Source of the DNA: a virus
DNA length: 24,846 nucleotides
Reading direction: 5' to 3' (one strand)
IMG/VR virus record: IMGVR_UViG_3300023440_000025
Coordinates: 1 to 24,846 of that record
The translations under genes were made by a program, and so were the position numbers. The notes under the pieces are model-generated. The model was not told the origin of the DNA and made no database searches. It was given only the letters and a program-made list of their open reading frames with translations. Positions 1,550-14,869 of the stretch are shown here, piece after piece; the stretch's first letter is position 1, and each line of letters begins with the position of its first letter.

Positions 1550-2143
1550 ATGCCAGGAAGATTTAGCAATATGACGAAGGCATTTTCTTATGCCTTTAAA
1601 TCTACACCAATGATGACTGGTGCAGGTATCGGCGCCGTTAGTGGTGGTATCTATGGTGGTTACTCAGGCCAAGGCATTGTGAGCGGCATGGCAAATGGCG
1701 CAATGTATGGTGCATTAGGCATGGGTATGATGCACCATGGTGGAGCAGGCTATAGAGCTGGACTAAAAGCCTATGAGAGAGGGGCTAATACGATGAGCAT
1801 CGCTAGGGCGGCAGGCGCTGCTAGTGGTAGACGTCTGTATGGTGAAGCCAGAAGATCAGCTGCTCTCATCGGTAGGGGTCTTGAATCTAATCAGGGGTTT
1901 GCTCGAATTCAGAGAGCTTACAGATCTCGGAGATCTAGAGCCACAGCAGCTAGTAACACTAGAAGGGTTCCAGCTCCTATAGACTTTGGACGCTTTGATC
2001 CTATGGGCAGAACAAGCCCACGAATGGCATCTATATTAGAAGCAAGGAGGGTTGCTAATAGACTAGGATGGAGACCTAGCCCAATAGGATCCACATGGCA
2101 ACGCAATAGAATGGCGCGTGGGTTAGCATATTATGGCACTTAA
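1550..2143 (+). CDS. Small Gly-rich basic protein 4 with long basic tail
   Basis: A protein of 197 residues. The N-terminal 70 residues resemble protein 3 (TGAGIGAVSGGIYGGYSG, then MANGAMYGALGMGMMHHGG), again with glycine-zipper spacing. The remaining ~120 residues are strongly basic and Arg/Ala-rich (for example RAYRSRRSRATAASNTRR), as expected for nucleic-acid contact, and end in RMARGLAYYGT. The start ATG is one base after the preceding stop. The 3' end overlaps the terminase start by 11 bases, tying expression of the two together. The family is not recognised. Adjacency to the terminase could suggest a packaging accessory or small terminase, but nothing like a small-terminase helix-turn-helix is evident, so that is not claimed. 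Confidence 0.7.
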   Translation: MPGRFSNMTKAFSYAFKSTPMMTGAGIGAVSGGIYGGYSGQGIVSGMANGAMYGALGMGMMHHGGAGYRAGLKAYERGANTMSIARAAGAASGRRLYGEARRSAALIGRGLESNQGFARIQRAYRSRRSRATAASNTRRVPAPIDFGRFDPMGRTSPRMASILEARRVANRLGWRPSPIGSTWQRNRMARGLAYYGT

Positions 2144-4106
2144 TATACTAAATACAGATGAAGCTTGCCACGGTTGCATTAAACACTACGCATGTAAACA
2201 TAAACTAAGGAAGGGTGGACAGTTCGAAATAGATTGTAGCGGTATTCCTAAGAGCTACGTCAGCGACGAACACGCCGCAGCATTACCAGCGGCCCACAAT
2301 GCTGCTATCCTCCTGGATCCAGTTAGATGGGCTGCTGAAGTATTAGACTGGCATTGTCTAGATGAAGATGGTTCTGTTTGGGAGCGTAAAGCCCCTGAAG
2401 AGTATTATCGTTTAACTGAAGAGTATCCAGGAAGAGCAAGTAAATTCCACCGTCCTTATCAGGCAGAAATGCTTCGCTGTACTTCTAGGCGAAAAGTATT
2501 CAGAATTGGACGTCAGGCGGGTAAAACTGAAACACTAGTTATATCAATGCTGTTTAACATGTTTACGAATAGCAACTTTAAGATCGTCCTAATTACACCA
2601 TTCCAGTCTCAGATTGACTTGATCTTCAAGAGGCTAGAGGAGCTAATTAAGAGCAGGCCAGCTTTGGCTAACTCTATTAAAAGAAATGTTAAAGCTCCAC
2701 AATATTCAATGGAGCTTTACAACGGTTCATATGTCAAGGGTTTTACTGCCGGTACTAAGTCTGGCAGTGGCGCAGCCTCAGCGCGTGGTCAGCCAGCTAA
2801 TATGCTGGTATTTGATGAGGCTGATTACCTAAACCCAGCAGATATGGATGCTGCCATGGCGATTATTACAAACTGTCCAGACGCTACTATCTGGATGAGT
2901 TCTACGCCATCTGGTAAACGTGAGAAGTTTTATGATTCCTGCCTAGATACAGAATGGAAAGAATTCCACCATCCTTCTTCTGTTAACCCCAACTGGACCC
3001 CTAAGCTTGAGCGCTTCTTTAGAAGAACTCTTACTGACATTGGCTTTAGACACGAGGTTCTTGCTGACTTCGGTGAGCAAGAGGAAGGTGTGTTTCAGGT
3101 CGAGTATGTTGAGGCTGCTCAGGCTGAATACACCTATGATGATATGTCTCCACAAGCTAGCTGGTTATACAGCATTGGTGTTGATTGGAACTCTCCAGCA
3201 GTTGGCACAACCATTAGAGTTGTTGGCTTTAACCCAGCTAATAGTAAATTCTATGTCGTAGATAGAGAAATTGTACAAAGAGCAGGATGGACTCAGCTTT
3301 CAGCTTGTGAAGCTATTGCAAAGATGAACAGAAAGTGGCGACCATTTGCGATCTATGTAGATAAGGGTTATGGAGCTACTCAAGTAGAAATTCTTCATAA
3401 GTTTGGTTACGACTCTTTGGCAGATCCAGAAAAGGGTCCGAGCCATGTGGATTCACGTTTGCCGCATATTGTTAAGGCGTATGACTTCGGTAGCAAGATT
3501 GAAACTCGAGACCCATTTACTAAACAGAAACTATCTAAGCCTGCTAAGGGGTTCTTGGTAGAAAGTTCAATACGTCGCTTTGAGTCAAAGGATATCTTCT
3601 TTCCAGAAGATGATCAGCAGCTAGCGGCAGAGCTGATGGGTTATGTTATCAAGAATGTCACTCCTACTGGTCAGCTTATATATGGAACAAATAGTGATAC
3701 TATTGGTGATCACAATCTTGACGCTCTTATGCTTTCTCTAGTTGCCTTTACACTAGAAAAAACTAATTTTGGCAAACCACCTTCAAATGAATCTATTAAT
3801 TTCACCACGATTCTTGGTGATGATCCAACTGATGTGGGAATTAAAGTAAAGTCCGAAGCTAGAAAGAGTAGAGCAGAGGCAAGTAGACCAAATCATGATC
3901 GTTCTAACTTTATGAATCAAGCATCTGCCCATGGCCATCGTGACCGTAATTCGTTACCCTCGTGGACAGAGCCATCAGAAAAAAGAGAACGTATCAAGGA
4001 AGCAGCATTTATTTCAAACCGCTCCGATTCCACGAGAGGAAGAAGTGGTGTATTATCTGGTGGAAGAAGAGGTCGGGATGGTCCTCCAAAACGTAGGAAT
4101 ATTTGA
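2133..4106 (+). CDS. terL: Terminase large subunit (DNA-packaging ATPase/nuclease)
   Basis: A protein of 657 residues. It is the motor that drives phage DNA through the portal and cuts the concatemer. ATPase motifs are Walker A GRQAGKTE at residues 126-133 (Lys131, Thr132) and Walker B MLVFDEAD with Asp228 and Glu229. The C-terminal RNase H-like nuclease shows the expected acidic residues: Asp351 in SIGVDWN, Asp410 in IYVDKGYG and Asp526/Asp530 in DHNLDALML. The N-terminus carries a Cys cluster (C12-x2-C15-x5-C21-x13-C35) that could bind zinc, outside the usual core. The last ~80 residues are basic, low in complexity and probably disordered. The start overlaps the previous gene by 11 bases. 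The length is on the large side for terminases because of these terminal extensions. The family call is secure. Confidence 0.97.
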   Translation: MALNILNTDEACHGCIKHYACKHKLRKGGQFEIDCSGIPKSYVSDEHAAALPAAHNAAILLDPVRWAAEVLDWHCLDEDGSVWERKAPEEYYRLTEEYPGRASKFHRPYQAEMLRCTSRRKVFRIGRQAGKTETLVISMLFNMFTNSNFKIVLITPFQSQIDLIFKRLEELIKSRPALANSIKRNVKAPQYSMELYNGSYVKGFTAGTKSGSGAASARGQPANMLVFDEADYLNPADMDAAMAIITNCPDATIWMSSTPSGKREKFYDSCLDTEWKEFHHPSSVNPNWTPKLERFFRRTLTDIGFRHEVLADFGEQEEGVFQVEYVEAAQAEYTYDDMSPQASWLYSIGVDWNSPAVGTTIRVVGFNPANSKFYVVDREIVQRAGWTQLSACEAIAKMNRKWRPFAIYVDKGYGATQVEILHKFGYDSLADPEKGPSHVDSRLPHIVKAYDFGSKIETRDPFTKQKLSKPAKGFLVESSIRRFESKDIFFPEDDQQLAAELMGYVIKNVTPTGQLIYGTNSDTIGDHNLDALMLSLVAFTLEKTNFGKPPSNESINFTTILGDDPTDVGIKVKSEARKSRAEASRPNHDRSNFMNQASAHGHRDRNSLPSWTEPSEKRERIKEAAFISNRSDSTRGRSGVLSGGRRGRDGPPKRRNI

Positions 4107-6763: not shown

Positions 6764-9700
6764 ATGAACATATTTGGCTTTCAAATTGGTAGAGATTCAA
6801 CGAACTTTCCGATTATACCGGACAACAATATCAATGTTCGGATTGCTGACCAGGGTCCCACCATTCGCCCTGAGTTAAAAGGCATTAGTATCCCAGAAGA
6901 GAAGCGTCCGGCTAATATTGTCCCTGTTAAGCCTAACGTGCTTACATACAATACTGACAGGTCTAGACGTGGTGATTTTATAGAATCTGAATATGATCTA
7001 GCACAGATTGGACGCGTAGAGGATACTGATAGTTACGTTGCACAAGCGTTTATCAAAAAGATCGGTCTTTTATTTAAGGAAGGTTATGAATTAGTAGGCC
7101 CTGATCCAAGAACTATTCAGTACATCAAAATGCGGTTTGAGCAAATAGCTCGTGCTACCGGAATTCCAACTGATGAACTTATCCGCTCCATTGGATCTGG
7201 CCTTATCAAGAAATCAAATGCATTCTTGATCAAGGTACGTAAAGAGTCTGCTTCTGGCGGTAGGCGTAGACAGGAACCAGGCAAAGAAACATTATTAGAG
7301 CCCGTGGCTGGTTATTTTGTTGCCCCTCCAGAGACTATGGAGGTTGATGCAGATCAGCATGGAAAGATCCGTAGGTGGAAGCAGCGCACCCATCAAGGCA
7401 ACTTTAAATACTTCCAGCCACAAGATGTAATTCATTTTTACTTCAATAAGAAGGAAGGGCTAATGTTTGGTACACCAACACTAGTTCCTGTAATTGATGA
7501 TATTCGTGCTCTCCGTAAGATTGAGGAGAATGTTGAACTTCTTATTTATCAACACCTATTTCCACTTTTTCACTACAAGATTGGCACTGATGACCAACCT
7601 GCTAGTGTTACTGAGCTTGGAGAAAGCGAAATTGAAGTAGCACAGCGTGAAATACGATATATGCCATCTGAGGGTGGTATCGTTACCTCTCACAGACATC
7701 AAATTCAACTTATCGGTACCGAGAATAGAGCCTTACGTGCTGAAGCATATCTTGAGCACTTCAAGAAGCGTGTATTCTCGGGTCTTGGCATTTCTGCAGT
7801 CGATATGGGTGAGGGTGAATGTTATGACGAAAGCACCCAAACTCTTACAGAAAATGGCTGGAAATTTCACTGGGCTATCGATCATCAGAATGAAAAGATT
7901 GCTACGTATAACCCAGTAAGCAAGCGCATAGAATTTCATCTTGCTAATTATAAGTATGAAGCTCCATATCTTGGCAAGATGATTAGGTTCAAGAATATAT
8001 TTTTAGATATGCAGGTTACACCTAGCCATGATATGTGGGTTCTATGCAATTCAGATAGAGTCTGGCGCAAGATGACTGCCCAGCAAGTGGCTGATGGAAA
8101 GGCGGGTTACCGATGCTCAGTCCTACAAACTGCTGCGTTTTGGGATGATGCATGTCCAGTTCTTCCACATGAAGACACCCTTTCTCTAGCTGCTCTTGCA
8201 GGCTTTGTTGCAGGTAGGGGCTATGAGAATAGAGATGGCCATCTTTATATTAGGAAGAGAAAGTTTCCTGGCCTTGGTATCGTCTGTGAGACCTTATCTG
8301 CTCTAGGTATTCCCTGGACCATCGAAGGCAAGGGATATAATGAATCCGTCAAAATTGATGAAAACACTCTAGGAGGCTTCTTTAAACAGTTTCTTGATGT
8401 CAGCGGCCTTAAATTTGCTGAAAAATTCCCGCTTCCAGCACGCAAGCTATTTGTATGCAACTTCGTACGGACAAGCTTTGACCATAGAGTAGACAGTATT
8501 GGCAAAACTGGAAATAAGTTTGTTACTCGTTTCACTGAACAGCCTGCCGTAGACATTGTCCAGAGATTAGTAATATCTGCTGGTTATAGTCTACATGTAA
8601 CGGAAGATCATAACACAAAGCTAGGTCACCACTTTAAGTTGCGAGCCAATCTACGTGAGAAGAATGACCAAACTCGCCTCATGATTGTTAAGCGTGATGT
8701 AAGTGAAGTAGATTATGGCGGTATTATTTACTGCTATAATGTTCCAAATCACCTATTTGTAACCAGAAGGAACAATTACATCGCTATTCAGGGCAACACT
8801 GCGAACCGTGCTACTTCTGACAATATGTCCCGTAATCTAGTTGACTCTGTCAAGGACATTCAGCGTACCATTGAGTGCCAGATTAATGATTTTATCATTA
8901 ATGAATTGCTACTCGAGTCCACTTTTGGACCCATGGTCCTAAATGAGGAACATAAAGTTAAACTTAAGTTCAAAGAGATTGATCTTGATCACCAGATTAA
9001 GAAAGAAACCCACTACGCTGACTTATTCAATAAGAACACTATTACATTCCATGAAGCCCGCATGGGAATGGGCTATCAGCCTATCCGTATCCCAACCATA
9101 GAAGAAATTGAAAATGACCAGAATTTAGAAGAGCGGTACCCAGAATGGTTCGCAACTAGGTGGAAACTCTTTGATGAGCCCAAAACTCTCATCCAGGCCA
9201 TTGATGAGCCTTACTCACCAGCTGCTAAAGCAGCAGCAGCTTCTACCTCTACCTCTCTAACCGAGCAACAAAGAGTTCAGGCAGGAGAGGAGCGTGCGCA
9301 GAACTCTGAAAGAGAGGCTCGTGCCAGTAAGCAAAATGCGCCAACCACTAAAACCCAGGACTTCCTAACACCTAAATACAATGATCTCGAAAGCGATCTC
9401 GTACAGATGGTGAACAAGAACAGTTTTGACTTCTTCTTCTTTAGACAACTAGCTATGTCTACTAAAGAATTAATGATCAAAGATCTAAAAAGCCGCTCCA
9501 TGGCATCATTTATGTCAGGCTATAGATCCTTAAATGGAAGCGTTCGTGATCAAGCTGAAGCTTCAATCCGTTCAAGAGGGAAGATCGAGAGTCGTGTTGA
9601 GTTCTATGTAAATAGGCTTATTAATGACACAGTAAATGCGGTAAAGAGACAGGGCATTGCGGATTTACCAAACGATGATAAAATCCACAGAGTTAAGGCT

Positions 9701-9955
9701 GTTTTTGATTCCTTTAAGTATCGCAACAGGTTCATGGAAGATGTAGAAATTAGAAAGGCATTCAACTTAGGCTTCTTAGAAGCAGCTAAAGACCAGGATT
9801 TTACTAAATGGAAAATAGTTGCACCATCCGATGCCTGCGACACCTGCAAGAGAGCATCGGCAGAACCTCAGCCATTACAATCTAATTTTGAACTTGAGGA
9901 TATCCCTCCACTACACGCAAATGCTAGAGCTGAGATTGAAGTACTTAAGGAGTAG
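6764..9955 (+). CDS. Portal protein precursor with intein and C-terminal Mu gpF-like domain
   Basis: A precursor of 1063 residues. The portal forms the dodecameric ring at one capsid vertex through which terminase pumps DNA. N-extein (1-352): typical portal sequence, including FFNKKEGLMFGTPTLVPV-like core text and, before the junction, FSGLGISAVDMGEGE. Intein: residues 353-678 (nt 7820-8797). C-extein (679-1063) resumes with TANRATSDNMSRNLVDSVK, a conserved portal motif, so the spliced portal would be 737 residues. The last ~170 residues form a helical domain ending in W1016...D1023-A-C-D-T-C1028 and PPLH1051ANARAEI, resembling the SPP1 gp7/Mu gpF minor-head domain but without the final Cys-rich signature. 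The start ATG follows AAGGA directly, and no better start exists. Portal and intein calls are strong; the gpF-like domain is probable. Confidence 0.95.
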   Translation: MNIFGFQIGRDSTNFPIIPDNNINVRIADQGPTIRPELKGISIPEEKRPANIVPVKPNVLTYNTDRSRRGDFIESEYDLAQIGRVEDTDSYVAQAFIKKIGLLFKEGYELVGPDPRTIQYIKMRFEQIARATGIPTDELIRSIGSGLIKKSNAFLIKVRKESASGGRRRQEPGKETLLEPVAGYFVAPPETMEVDADQHGKIRRWKQRTHQGNFKYFQPQDVIHFYFNKKEGLMFGTPTLVPVIDDIRALRKIEENVELLIYQHLFPLFHYKIGTDDQPASVTELGESEIEVAQREIRYMPSEGGIVTSHRHQIQLIGTENRALRAEAYLEHFKKRVFSGLGISAVDMGEGECYDESTQTLTENGWKFHWAIDHQNEKIATYNPVSKRIEFHLANYKYEAPYLGKMIRFKNIFLDMQVTPSHDMWVLCNSDRVWRKMTAQQVADGKAGYRCSVLQTAAFWDDACPVLPHEDTLSLAALAGFVAGRGYENRDGHLYIRKRKFPGLGIVCETLSALGIPWTIEGKGYNESVKIDENTLGGFFKQFLDVSGLKFAEKFPLPARKLFVCNFVRTSFDHRVDSIGKTGNKFVTRFTEQPAVDIVQRLVISAGYSLHVTEDHNTKLGHHFKLRANLREKNDQTRLMIVKRDVSEVDYGGIIYCYNVPNHLFVTRRNNYIAIQGNTANRATSDNMSRNLVDSVKDIQRTIECQINDFIINELLLESTFGPMVLNEEHKVKLKFKEIDLDHQIKKETHYADLFNKNTITFHEARMGMGYQPIRIPTIEEIENDQNLEERYPEWFATRWKLFDEPKTLIQAIDEPYSPAAKAAAASTSTSLTEQQRVQAGEERAQNSEREARASKQNAPTTKTQDFLTPKYNDLESDLVQMVNKNSFDFFFFRQLAMSTKELMIKDLKSRSMASFMSGYRSLNGSVRDQAEASIRSRGKIESRVEFYVNRLINDTVNAVKRQGIADLPNDDKIHRVKAVFDSFKYRNRFMEDVEIRKAFNLGFLEAAKDQDFTKWKIVAPSDACDTCKRASAEPQPLQSNFELEDIPPLHANARAEIEVLKE
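7820..8797 (+). mobile_element. Intein in the portal protein, with degenerate LAGLIDADG endonuclease domain
   Basis: A protein-splicing element of 326 residues. Block A begins with Cys1 (CYDESTQTLTENGWK). Block B is TPSHDMWV, with Thr67 and His70 of the intein. Block F is YCYNVPNHLFVTRR, and block G ends NYIAIQGN followed by Thr as the +1 residue. Chemistry is therefore class 1: Cys1, terminal Asn326, Thr+1. The penultimate residue is Gly instead of the commoner His. Between the splicing halves, LAALAGFVAGRGY at intein residues 123-135 aligns with a LAGLIDADG helix, but the acidic metal-binding residue position (GDG in active enzymes) reads GRG. A second, weaker helix, PAVDIVQRLVISAGYS, aligns with the second motif region. 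The nuclease is likely inactive while splicing is probably retained, because removal restores an uninterrupted portal motif. Confidence 0.93.
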
Positions 9956-9963
9956 ATTTGCTT

Positions 9964-12315
9964 ATGAGCATTAATAATGGACGCATCACTGATCGTGGCT
10001 GGGAGTTTTCTGATAAAGCTACCTTTCATGTAGTTGATGTAAATAAAGATTCTCTAGAAAAGGTAAGGGACGATTATCCTGGAGCCTTTAAGCCTCAAGC
10101 TGGCGGCACACCACATCCAACTGGTCTTGGAACTATTGCTAATCCACAAGAGCCTGACGAATCTGTCACCCCCTCTTCTGGACGTGGTCTTGTTATTCGT
10201 CTTGCAGCTACGCATGCTGGCCTTGTCACCCGCAATAACGGTTTTTATCTACCTGATAAAATGCGTGATGGCGTAAAGACATTTACTGACTTATATCCAA
10301 AACCAATCCAGGTTCACCATGAAGACCATACAGACCCAGTGGGTCGCGTACTTGCTGCACGCTATGTAGAGACTGTAAGCGCAGTTGCAGATCGTTTTAA
10401 GAATTCTATCTTGCGTGACTCTCGCAATAAGGATGTTGGACGCGCTGACCTAGAGTTCTGGAAGGACTTTTGTGGTAGCGATAAGTCCTTTATTGAAAAG
10501 CTTCAGATGATCAAGCTGATGGACAACGTTCTATCAGATAAGCATTATCGTGGTGTTGGTTATATTGAGCTAACTGCTGATATTACTGACCCAGATGCCA
10601 TCCAGAAAGTTCTTGATGGTAGATTCCTAACCGGCTCTGTTGGTGCTGTATCCGACAAGGCTGTGTGTTCTATTTGTAATACAAACTGGCTCGAAGAAGA
10701 GTATTGCGACCATAGACCCGGAAGGGTTTATGATGGTAAGAAGTGTTTTGTTATTGCTGGTGGACTCGAATACGATGAATATTCATTCGTAAACACCCCG
10801 GCTGACAGGCACTCTACAATTCTCTCCATTGAGTCAAATAATTTCCGAGACAGCGTAAAAGATGACAAGAAGCCTAATCTCTTCTTTTATCCTATCGCTG
10901 ATTATTTCCACGAGGAGGATTCTGCAATGGATAAAAACCCCACGGCAACCGAATCCGAAGTTGAGGTCAAAGATGAGGCCCAGGCTTCTGATGAAACCGC
11001 AACAGGATCTACAAAAACTGTTGCCACGCCAGATGCAGAAGCTGGAGCAAACGCTGACGTTAAGGACGCTGCCGAGGCTTCTGCAGAATCTGGAGAAAAA
11101 ACAGATGAGACTATTAAGGATAAGTCTACTGAAGAAAAAGTTGAAGATGCGGCCCAAGATGACCCAGTTCTAGTGCTGCTAGACAAGGTCTTTAGCGGTG
11201 AAGAGGTCAGCCTGACAGATGCAGATTCTGACGTTCTCTATGATGCTCTGGTTGCAGAGTTTCCAGAAGAATTCAAGGATGCTGCTCTTTCTGCTAATCA
11301 GCGCAAGAAGCTTCCAAAGAGTTCTTTCTGCGGACCGGGTCGCTCGTTCCCAGTTCTTGATTGCGCACACGTAACTGCCGCACGTCGCCTTGCGAGTCGT
11401 TACAAGGGCCCAGGTAGCAAGAAAGCTATCATGGACCGTATAGACCGTAAGGCTAAGGCCTTGGGCTGCAATAGCGAGGATGGAGTATGCAATGTTCCAG
11501 TAAAAGACTCTACTGGACCTCAAGAGAAGGTAGAGGATGGCCGCCTAACAGGTGATGTTGTCCGCTCTATACTCGCCGCTCTAGACCTTGGTCTATATGG
11601 ATCTTCATGGGATGAGACTGAGACAGAGGCACCAGTCCTAACTAGCAAGGAGATAGAGTCTCTTCGCATGATGGTTGTTGAGCTTGTGAAACGAATTGGC
11701 AAAGACAACCTCGAAGGAGCTTTAGTTGCCGAAGGTCTAATCACCAACAAGGAAGATCTCGATGCACAGGTAGCAGAGGCAACCAGACTAGAGGATGAGC
11801 TTGGTAATAAAAATACCCAGCTCAATGCTCTACGTCAGGAGCTACGTGCAACTTACGCCGATGTTGCAAACCTAACTGATCAGCTAGTCGATGCTAACGC
11901 AAAGATTCGTGACCAGAAGGTGAGGCGTGCTGGAGATCTATATAAATTAGATGGTTCATTCACTGATGAACTTACTGATAAACTCATTAAGTTAAGTGAC
12001 GAAGTGCTTGACAATACACTAGAAACACTCTCTAGCAAGGTTGACATCACTAAAATCGCTGCTAAAGTCAATGATGGACTCTCAAGAACACCAGAAGAAA
12101 CCGTAGATAACCCTACCGAAGTAACGACGCCTTCTGTTACTGAGGAAAATAAGGATACAGTAGACAGCAAGCCTACTTTTCATACACAGGACCAGGTAGA
12201 CAGAGAATATCGTCGTATTCTCGTTAAAATGCAAAATCCAGTCGCTGCTAAGGCCTTTTATGAGGATGCAGTAGCAAAGGGTCTCGCAGCACCAAAGCCT
12301 GGTTTTGATAACTAA
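9964..12315 (+). CDS. Prohead protease-scaffold fusion protein
   Basis: A protein of 783 residues from ATG 9964; a TTG at 9958 nearer to the GGAG site is an alternative start. Residues ~50-310 look like a phage prohead (U35/S78-type) serine protease: IQVHHEDHTDPVGRVL supplies His118/His119 and LTGSVGAVS supplies candidate nucleophile Ser225, followed by EYSFVNTPADR. A zinc-knuckle-like insert, C235-x2-C238-x9-C248-x-H250, lies after the Ser motif. The rest is scaffold-like: an acidic, Ala/Glu/Asp-rich linker (322-440), a compact motif resembling DUF6582 (LSANQRKKLPKSSF... then PVLDCAHVTAARRLASRY, ~443-500) and a coiled coil (~600-652). The protease would mature capsid proteins, and the scaffold would template the procapsid and then be degraded. 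It lies between portal and capsid genes, the standard order. Confidence 0.88.
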   Translation: MSINNGRITDRGWEFSDKATFHVVDVNKDSLEKVRDDYPGAFKPQAGGTPHPTGLGTIANPQEPDESVTPSSGRGLVIRLAATHAGLVTRNNGFYLPDKMRDGVKTFTDLYPKPIQVHHEDHTDPVGRVLAARYVETVSAVADRFKNSILRDSRNKDVGRADLEFWKDFCGSDKSFIEKLQMIKLMDNVLSDKHYRGVGYIELTADITDPDAIQKVLDGRFLTGSVGAVSDKAVCSICNTNWLEEEYCDHRPGRVYDGKKCFVIAGGLEYDEYSFVNTPADRHSTILSIESNNFRDSVKDDKKPNLFFYPIADYFHEEDSAMDKNPTATESEVEVKDEAQASDETATGSTKTVATPDAEAGANADVKDAAEASAESGEKTDETIKDKSTEEKVEDAAQDDPVLVLLDKVFSGEEVSLTDADSDVLYDALVAEFPEEFKDAALSANQRKKLPKSSFCGPGRSFPVLDCAHVTAARRLASRYKGPGSKKAIMDRIDRKAKALGCNSEDGVCNVPVKDSTGPQEKVEDGRLTGDVVRSILAALDLGLYGSSWDETETEAPVLTSKEIESLRMMVVELVKRIGKDNLEGALVAEGLITNKEDLDAQVAEATRLEDELGNKNTQLNALRQELRATYADVANLTDQLVDANAKIRDQKVRRAGDLYKLDGSFTDELTDKLIKLSDEVLDNTLETLSSKVDITKIAAKVNDGLSRTPEETVDNPTEVTTPSVTEENKDTVDSKPTFHTQDQVDREYRRILVKMQNPVAAKAFYEDAVAKGLAAPKPGFDN
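10912..10918 (+). promoter_or_regulatory. Strong internal ribosome-binding site for scaffold-only product
   Basis: GAGGAGG lies inside the protease-scaffold frame, eight bases before an in-frame ATG at 10927. The same GAGGAGG core precedes the next gene (12316-12322), and AAGGAGG precedes the capsid gene (13594-13600), while most other genes in the window have weaker sites. The placement is exactly at the boundary between protease and acidic scaffold sequence. Confidence 0.7.
10927..12315 (+). CDS. Putative separate scaffold protein from internal in-frame start
   Basis: The ATG at 10927 is in frame with the protease-scaffold gene and would give a 462-residue protein beginning MDKNPTATESEVEVKDEAQ. 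It contains the whole acidic region, the DUF6582-like motif and the coiled coil, and none of the protease. It is preceded by GAGGAGG with ideal spacing. Nested scaffold genes sharing the 3' end of a protease gene are established in other phages (lambda C/Nu3 is the classic case), since many more scaffold copies than protease copies are needed. That this start is used is inferred from the ribosome site and the domain boundary; it has not been shown. The long gene is certain, the nested product probable. Confidence 0.68.
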   Translation: MDKNPTATESEVEVKDEAQASDETATGSTKTVATPDAEAGANADVKDAAEASAESGEKTDETIKDKSTEEKVEDAAQDDPVLVLLDKVFSGEEVSLTDADSDVLYDALVAEFPEEFKDAALSANQRKKLPKSSFCGPGRSFPVLDCAHVTAARRLASRYKGPGSKKAIMDRIDRKAKALGCNSEDGVCNVPVKDSTGPQEKVEDGRLTGDVVRSILAALDLGLYGSSWDETETEAPVLTSKEIESLRMMVVELVKRIGKDNLEGALVAEGLITNKEDLDAQVAEATRLEDELGNKNTQLNALRQELRATYADVANLTDQLVDANAKIRDQKVRRAGDLYKLDGSFTDELTDKLIKLSDEVLDNTLETLSSKVDITKIAAKVNDGLSRTPEETVDNPTEVTTPSVTEENKDTVDSKPTFHTQDQVDREYRRILVKMQNPVAAKAFYEDAVAKGLAAPKPGFDN

Positions 12316-13609: not shown

Positions 13610-14869
13610 ATGGAGAATATGAACTTTGTTCCAGCTAACGAACTAAAGATCAACGACTCTGCCCAGATGGAATACGTCTGGCGCACAGGAAAAGATCCCA
13701 ACTCTGGCGGATTAGTGAAGCTAACTGACGCACTATCCGTACCAGACGCACCACTACTTTTACCTAAGGTAATGAGTAACGTTGTGCGTGAAGCCCAAGA
13801 GCCTCTTCTTGTAGGTACCTCTCTACTTCAGAGAATTCAGTATAGCTATGGACAGACAATCACCTTCCCTGCGGTTGGTGCCCTGGTAGCAGCTGATATC
13901 GCTGAGGGACAGGAGTATCCAGAGCAGCGCCTCCAGATGGGCGGAAGCACTGTAACGGCAACCATCGGTAAGAGCGGCGTCGCCGTTAAGGTTACCGAGG
14001 AAATGATCCGTTACAGCCAATTCGATGTAATTGGAATGCATCTCCGTGCAGCTGGTCGAGCGCTTGCTCGACACAAGGAGCAGAAGATCTTTAATATGAT
14101 TCGCTCCATGGGTGTAAACGTCTTTGATAACGTCAATCCAACGCAATCTCTAAAGGGTGTCACCACTGGTCGCTCTCTAGATGGTTCTCCAAATGGTTCT
14201 GTAACCATGGACGATGTCTTTGATTGCTTTGGACAGGTTATGACTCAGGGCTTCATGCCAGATACCCTTCTCATGCATCCACTTACCTGGATTATGTTTG
14301 TGAAGGATCCCACTCTGCGCATGTTTGCTTTGATGAGTGGTGGCGGAACCTTCTTCGCCAACTGGACAGGACGTGTAAACCAGCAGTTTAATCCACAAGC
14401 CTCCCAAGGCGGACTGGGTACTGGTGCTGGTCAGAACGTAATCGCTCCTGGTGACCGCGCTGGTCCAGGCGCTCCAAGTGATCTAGCTGACTTTAGCCAG
14501 GTCATGAATAGTGCCCCAGTTCTACCTAGCTTCCTAGGAATGAACTTCAGGATCATCGTGTCTCCATTCGTGCCATTCGACCCACGCACAAGACTAACGG
14601 ATATCTACATGTTCGATAGCTCTGAGCTTGGTGCTCTCGTGGTAGATGAGGATGTCATGACTGAGGAGTTTAATGATCCTAAGGTTGAAATCCGTAAGAT
14701 CAAGCTTCGTGAGCGCTATGCTGTTGCTATCCTCCATGAGGGTCAGGGCGTAGCGACTATGAAGAACGTACATGTCGTACCAAATGAGGTTGTACTACCT
14801 GCTCAGGCAAATATCAATGTTGCTACCTCACAGCTTGGAACTATCGATCCAACAGCTGACGTCCTATAA
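13610..14869 (+). CDS. Major capsid protein (HK97 fold)
   Basis: A protein of 419 residues, the shell-forming subunit. Recognisable HK97-type features are an N-terminal arm, then VREAQEPLLVGTSLLQRI and YGQTITFPAVGAL (start of the main fold and E-loop region), AEGQEYPE, the P-domain spine helix region EEMIRYSQFDVIGMHLRAAG followed by RALARHKEQKIFN, and the A-domain text TMDDVFDCFGQVMTQGFMPD with LLMHPLTWIMF. The C-terminal part reads LGMNFRIIVSPFVPFD and VVDEDVMTEEFNDP, typical of the closing strands. The N-terminal segment before the fold is short, so the scaffold is supplied by the separate upstream gene. Its strong ribosome site indicates high expression, and a terminator follows 40 bases downstream, which would close the head transcript here. 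Confidence 0.95.
   Translation: MENMNFVPANELKINDSAQMEYVWRTGKDPNSGGLVKLTDALSVPDAPLLLPKVMSNVVREAQEPLLVGTSLLQRIQYSYGQTITFPAVGALVAADIAEGQEYPEQRLQMGGSTVTATIGKSGVAVKVTEEMIRYSQFDVIGMHLRAAGRALARHKEQKIFNMIRSMGVNVFDNVNPTQSLKGVTTGRSLDGSPNGSVTMDDVFDCFGQVMTQGFMPDTLLMHPLTWIMFVKDPTLRMFALMSGGGTFFANWTGRVNQQFNPQASQGGLGTGAGQNVIAPGDRAGPGAPSDLADFSQVMNSAPVLPSFLGMNFRIIVSPFVPFDPRTRLTDIYMFDSSELGALVVDEDVMTEEFNDPKVEIRKIKLRERYAVAILHEGQGVATMKNVHVVPNEVVLPAQANINVATSQLGTIDPTADVL

Follow-up and report, generated by a model that had tools for sequence, protein, structure and literature searches.

An intein with a degenerate homing endonuclease in a viral portal gene

The homing cycle of inteins has been described (PMC1654191), and its decay phase matches the model that we propose here for an intein in the portal gene of a virus, the entire record of which (24,846 bases) constitutes the window analysed in this study. 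Among the systems described so far, PhoVMA of Pyrococcus horikoshii (PDB 7QST) harbours a degenerate homing endonuclease (HEN), reported to be inactive, in which neither helix retains its active-site residues (PMC8966425). Like the window intein, it is a full-length LAGLIDADG element in which the acids of blocks C and E have been lost and the fold has been kept, and it ranked third among the Foldseek matches of the window intein model; it differs in being hosted by an archaeal V-ATPase subunit instead of a phage portal, and the two share 13% identity. Portal (PORT) inteins have already been reported in cluster C1 mycobacteriophages (PMC5050341), which resemble the window in the kind of gene that hosts the intein, and an earlier, sequence-only reading of the window, which considered portal inteins to be less familiar, was in this respect overstated. 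The LAGLIDADG inteins of Corynebacterium phage P1201, Mycobacterium phage LRRHood and others match the window intein in tblastn searches at 23-25% identity, but their hosts are thymidylate synthase, nucleotidyltransferase and DNA methylase genes. Neighbouring intein sites in one conserved protein, sometimes both occupied, are known from the MCM-a and MCM-d sites of Haloarchaea (PMC10643990); by comparison, the portal has two insertion sites, a and b, which flank T-x-N-R-x at a distance of only five residues from each other, and the window has one of them (site a) filled. In this study we conclude that the window intein, which is presumed to be splicing-competent, carries a disabled HEN and is inherited with the portal gene, very probably stands in the decay phase of that cycle.

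The portal gene, its intein and the empty site

Positions 128-24303 of the window constitute a one-strand module for head and tail, in which a terminase (2133-4106) lies upstream of the portal gene, a 785-aa open reading frame (ORF) without a named family (9958-12315) follows it, and the major capsid protein is encoded at 13610-14869; the majority of the remaining ORFs have no PHROG match. The portal precursor is encoded on the plus strand by an ORF of 1063 aa (6764-9955), identified as a portal protein by the match of the PHROG profile phrog_9232 (portal) over the extein (E 1.4e-48). The insert itself matched weakly to phrog_85, a thymidylate synthase family with intein-bearing members, and tblastn searches against phage records related the extein to phage portals and the insert to inteins in unrelated phage genes. 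Nothing was found when the phage records were searched at the DNA level, Pfam gave no match for the window protein or the intein, and their NCBIfam matches were insignificant.

The identification of the insert at 7820-8797 (plus strand) as a class 1 intein holds on the basis of its sequence and modelled fold. It comprises 326 aa, from the nucleophile Cys1 (portal residue 353, beginning at 7820) to Gly325-Asn326 (Asn326 being portal residue 678, finishing at 8797), with Thr at the +1 position (Ser in the relative L004). Alignment to intein-free portals delimits an N-extein (6764-7819, plus strand; portal residues 1-352, ending in DMGEGE) and a C-extein (8798-9952, plus strand; residues 679-1063, beginning with TANRAT). 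Splice block A (CYDESTQTLTENGW; 7820-7861), block B (VTPSHDMWV; 8015-8041), which includes the TxxH motif as TPSH at intein residues 67-70, and blocks F and G (YCYNVPNHLFVTRRNNYIAIQGN; 8729-8797) are all present on the plus strand. Across 17 aligned related inteins, C1, T6, T8-T10 and G13 are invariant in block A, V66, P68, H70 and M72 in block B, and Y304, C305, V308-L312, T315 and N326 in blocks F and G; C1, P68, H70, Y304, C305, V308-L312 and N326 are the key splice positions among them. In class 1 inteins the penultimate residue is usually His, and the +1 residue is Cys, Ser or Thr. The sequence-only reading had placed the element at exactly these coordinates with blocks A, B, F and G readable, and the arithmetic agrees with its predicted products, a portal of 737 residues and an intein of 326 (1063-326 = 737); its description of the penultimate Gly as atypical stands against textbook inteins but not within the site-a family, where Gly is found in every intein.

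Structure prediction from the 17-intein alignment yielded an AlphaFold model (pLDDT 88.8, pTM 0.86) with a Hint fold, the top PDB matches of which were TliVMA, PhoVMA and PI-SceI, all of them LAGLIDADG inteins (E 1e-14 to 4e-12); matches among viral entries included the portal of Gordonia phage Lahirium. An intein family profile found PI-PkoII, TliVMA and I-DmoI in the PDB, and a phmmer search of the PDB with the single intein returned chance matches only. According to the mechanism that we propose, a class 1 LAGLIDADG intein inserted between GEGE and TANRAT would be translated as part of the 1063-residue precursor and removed by its Hint fold (intein residues about 1-108 and 285-326). Following established intein chemistry, an acyl shift at Cys1 would be succeeded by transesterification to Thr+1, cyclisation of Asn326 and ligation of GEGE to TANRAT, giving the 737-residue portal. 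The window intein is thus predicted to splice itself out, and we propose that splicing has been kept because portal function needs it.

The comparison with intein-free relatives, set beforehand as a refutation test, revealed homologs without the 326 residues in which the exteins are joined. In Moorella phage MTATph1 and Bacillus phage KLEB27-3, the portal aligns without residues 353-678 and its flanks are joined, as GRGD-TANRS and GIGD-SANKS respectively. In a third intein-free allele, that of locus L099, GEGE and TANRAT are contiguous exactly as predicted for excision, and the conserved portal core is joined in the same way in L103 and L111. We surveyed viral portal loci by alignment to the N-extein, and among the best 80 of 288, which include some near-duplicates, 9 harboured an intein at site a or the neighbouring site and 71 had none; one of these loci, L097, comes from the contig that also supplied the intein-bearing L002/L021. 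The presence of the insert in the window is not due to chance, since some relatives carry it at the identical junction and most others lack it and have their flanks joined. Mapped onto the portal tree, the site-a intein requires 12 gains or losses, eight of which are forced by well-supported branches, and its distribution is therefore sporadic overall.

These results also bear on the reading of the insert as a lineage-specific portal domain and not an intein, to which we assign an almost negligible probability. The insert does run uninterrupted within a single ORF; however, it has all the splice blocks and an intein fold, its occurrence in relatives is sporadic, and it is homologous to inteins in other phage proteins. 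A portal domain is moreover contradicted by the joined flanks of the intein-free homologs.

State of the endonuclease domain

A degenerate two-repeat LAGLIDADG endonuclease domain occupies positions 8144-8671 (plus strand; intein residues about 109-284), as supported by the AlphaFold model, the profile score and a Foldseek match to I-DmoI (E about 4e-6), which identifies the two-repeat fold. Its first LAGLIDADG helix (LAALAGFVAGRG; 8186-8221, plus strand) includes LAGFVAGRG at intein residues 126-134, in which Arg133 (8216-8218) occupies the catalytic position. Glu or Asp is found at this position in all 15 site-a relatives whose HEN is intact, where block C terminates in S-E-G or a similar triplet; their block E has Asp, in a terminal G-D-G or S-D-G. 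The block C acid is likewise missing from the two closest relatives of the window intein, with a different replacement in each lineage (AGRG in the window, AGNE in L001 and VGIG in L006), and the block E acid is missing from all three. The second helix (8432-8476, plus strand) corresponds to residues 205-219 of the model, and its alignment is uncertain: Ser219 occupies the catalytic position when anchored on the shared ARK (207-209) and on the residue at which the modelled helix ends (219), and MAFFT places Ile227 opposite the block E Asp. As neither residue is acidic, the block E acid is absent under either alignment, and the window does not have the one acid at the end of each helix that characterizes an active HEN.

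A profile built only from intact HENs, from which two site-b control inteins were excluded, scored the window at 6.9 bits, L001 at 6.6 and L006 at 17.1, compared with 146 for the control L007 and 140 for the site-b intein of L012; it did not find L011, a mini-intein. Similarly, Pfam LAGLIDADG_3 matched 13 of 17 family inteins, those without a match being the window, L001, L006 and the same mini-intein. From these residues and scores we infer that the window HEN cannot cut DNA. That it could still be active through acids at neighbouring positions, leaving the element mobile, is very improbable: Asp221 and Asp225 do lie close to the second helix and the fold is predicted to be intact, but the block C acid is unambiguously replaced by Arg133, it is missing in the two closest relatives too, and the profile score is down to 6.9 bits.

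Divergence and inheritance of the degenerate clade

The portal (extein) tree groups the window with L001 and then L006 (SH-aLRT 100 for the clade), and the intein tree recovers the same order (SH-aLRT 99). This congruence fits vertical inheritance of the intein with the portal gene within the clade, for which a search found no further degenerate members beyond L001/L002 and L006. Because synonymous sites are saturated among the three members, formal dN/dS was dropped in favour of relative rates and shuffled controls; given this saturation, a low level of constraint may still act on the HEN of the clade. In codon comparisons, the ratio of HEN dN to portal-core dN was 3.6, 4.0 and 4.0 in the three clade pairs, against 0.7-1.8 in nine pairs with intact HENs. 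HEN identity between the clade and intact relatives (19-27%) is at shuffle level (mean 24%), compared with 38-51% among intact pairs, whereas the N-terminal splicing part retains 42-56% identity to intact inteins (49-64% among intact pairs). Within the clade, the window and L001 HENs are 44% identical, above all shuffles (maximum 34%), and those of the window and L006 are 28% identical, not above shuffles. In the all-family alignment, the HEN/splice distance ratios of the three clade pairs rank with the highest 2.3% among 666 intact pairs, their range partly overlapping that of the latter, since 15 of the 666 reach the window-L001 level and eight the window-L006 level.

This pattern fits a common ancestor in which catalysis was lost, after which the HEN drifted and splicing was maintained, although the differing replacements mean that catalysis may also have been lost separately in the three lineages. 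Under the model that we favour, the HEN would most likely have lost its catalytic function no later than in the ancestor that the window virus shares with its two nearest relatives, and the element would since have passed down together with the portal gene, its HEN sequence drifting and deletion yet to occur. The degeneracy proposed by the sequence-only reading, with Arg at the acidic position of LAGFVAGRG and an eroded second helix, was thus borne out by the catalytic residues lost in three related lineages, the collapsed profile score and the faster divergence of the HEN; its broader claim, that mobility was lost and splicing kept, is supported, HEN decay by residues, profile and rates, and splicing as a prediction from the conserved splice blocks.

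A different reading, which we regard as unlikely, is that the nuclease-dead HEN has been kept for another job, either as a scaffold for Hint splicing (HEN-Hint mutualism) or as a DNA-binding or regulatory module coupling portal maturation to conditions. Mutualism between HEN and Hint was put forward for TliVMA and MvuTFIIB (PMC8966425). All three clade members retain near-full-length inteins (326-338 aa), compared with 156 aa in the mini-intein L011, in spite of deletion being clearly viable at this site, and the window and L001 HENs are still 44% identical despite saturated synonymous sites. Furthermore, a model built from the three degenerate sequences only still resembles I-DmoI (TM-score by target 0.54-0.61, E about 2e-5), at a low confidence (mean pLDDT 57) that makes it soft support only. 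Against this, the HEN has diverged 3.6-4 times as much as the portal core, the window-L006 identity lies within the shuffle range, and the mini-intein apparently manages without the domain. The stronger version, in which splicing depends on the dead HEN as its scaffold or sensor and intein removal gates the assembly of the packaging portal, is less probable still.

Diversity of inteins at the two portal sites

The inteins of sites a and b fall on separate sides of one branch of the intein tree (SH-aLRT 99). At the site of the window intein, L011 (5934-6401) carries the 156-aa mini-intein without a HEN, and the portal gene of L012 (5934-8045) contains two complete inteins of 355 and 344 aa, each in the lineage of its own site and separated by the five extein residues TSNRA (6999-7013). 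Both HEN acids have also been lost at site b, in another group of portal inteins that is distinct from the window clade (L052, L055, L077 and L082); their HENs show ratios of 0.97-2.0 to the splicing part, no faster than intact ones and unlike those of the window clade, and this even divergence may reflect a retained function. A site-b portal intein was also identified in a bacterial assembly contig (L176; Gammaproteobacteria MAG RFGN01000256.1), with ACFLKYGK as block C and a HEN that looks dead too. The L003 portal has a third insertion site close to its N terminus, after IGRIED, which is occupied by an extra Ser1 intein (IED-S...HN-TDCYV), and the site-a intein of the same protein has an intact HEN; another phage gene (L184, from position 3001 onward) has an apparent short intein with a second intein closely behind.

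In a brief literature search we came to know of no report of the paired sites, mini-intein, double intein or site-b dead-HEN group of the portal. The two adjacent sites with separate lineages, the L011 mini-intein, the L012 double intein and the dead HENs of site b are, as far as that search goes, the new elements of this study, and the window intein, taken alone, is a decaying element of an ordinary kind. Site a shows all the stages of the homing cycle, namely empty alleles, inteins with an intact HEN, the dead full-length HEN of the window and a HEN-less mini-intein, and because they occur together the portal is well suited to comparative work on intein decay.
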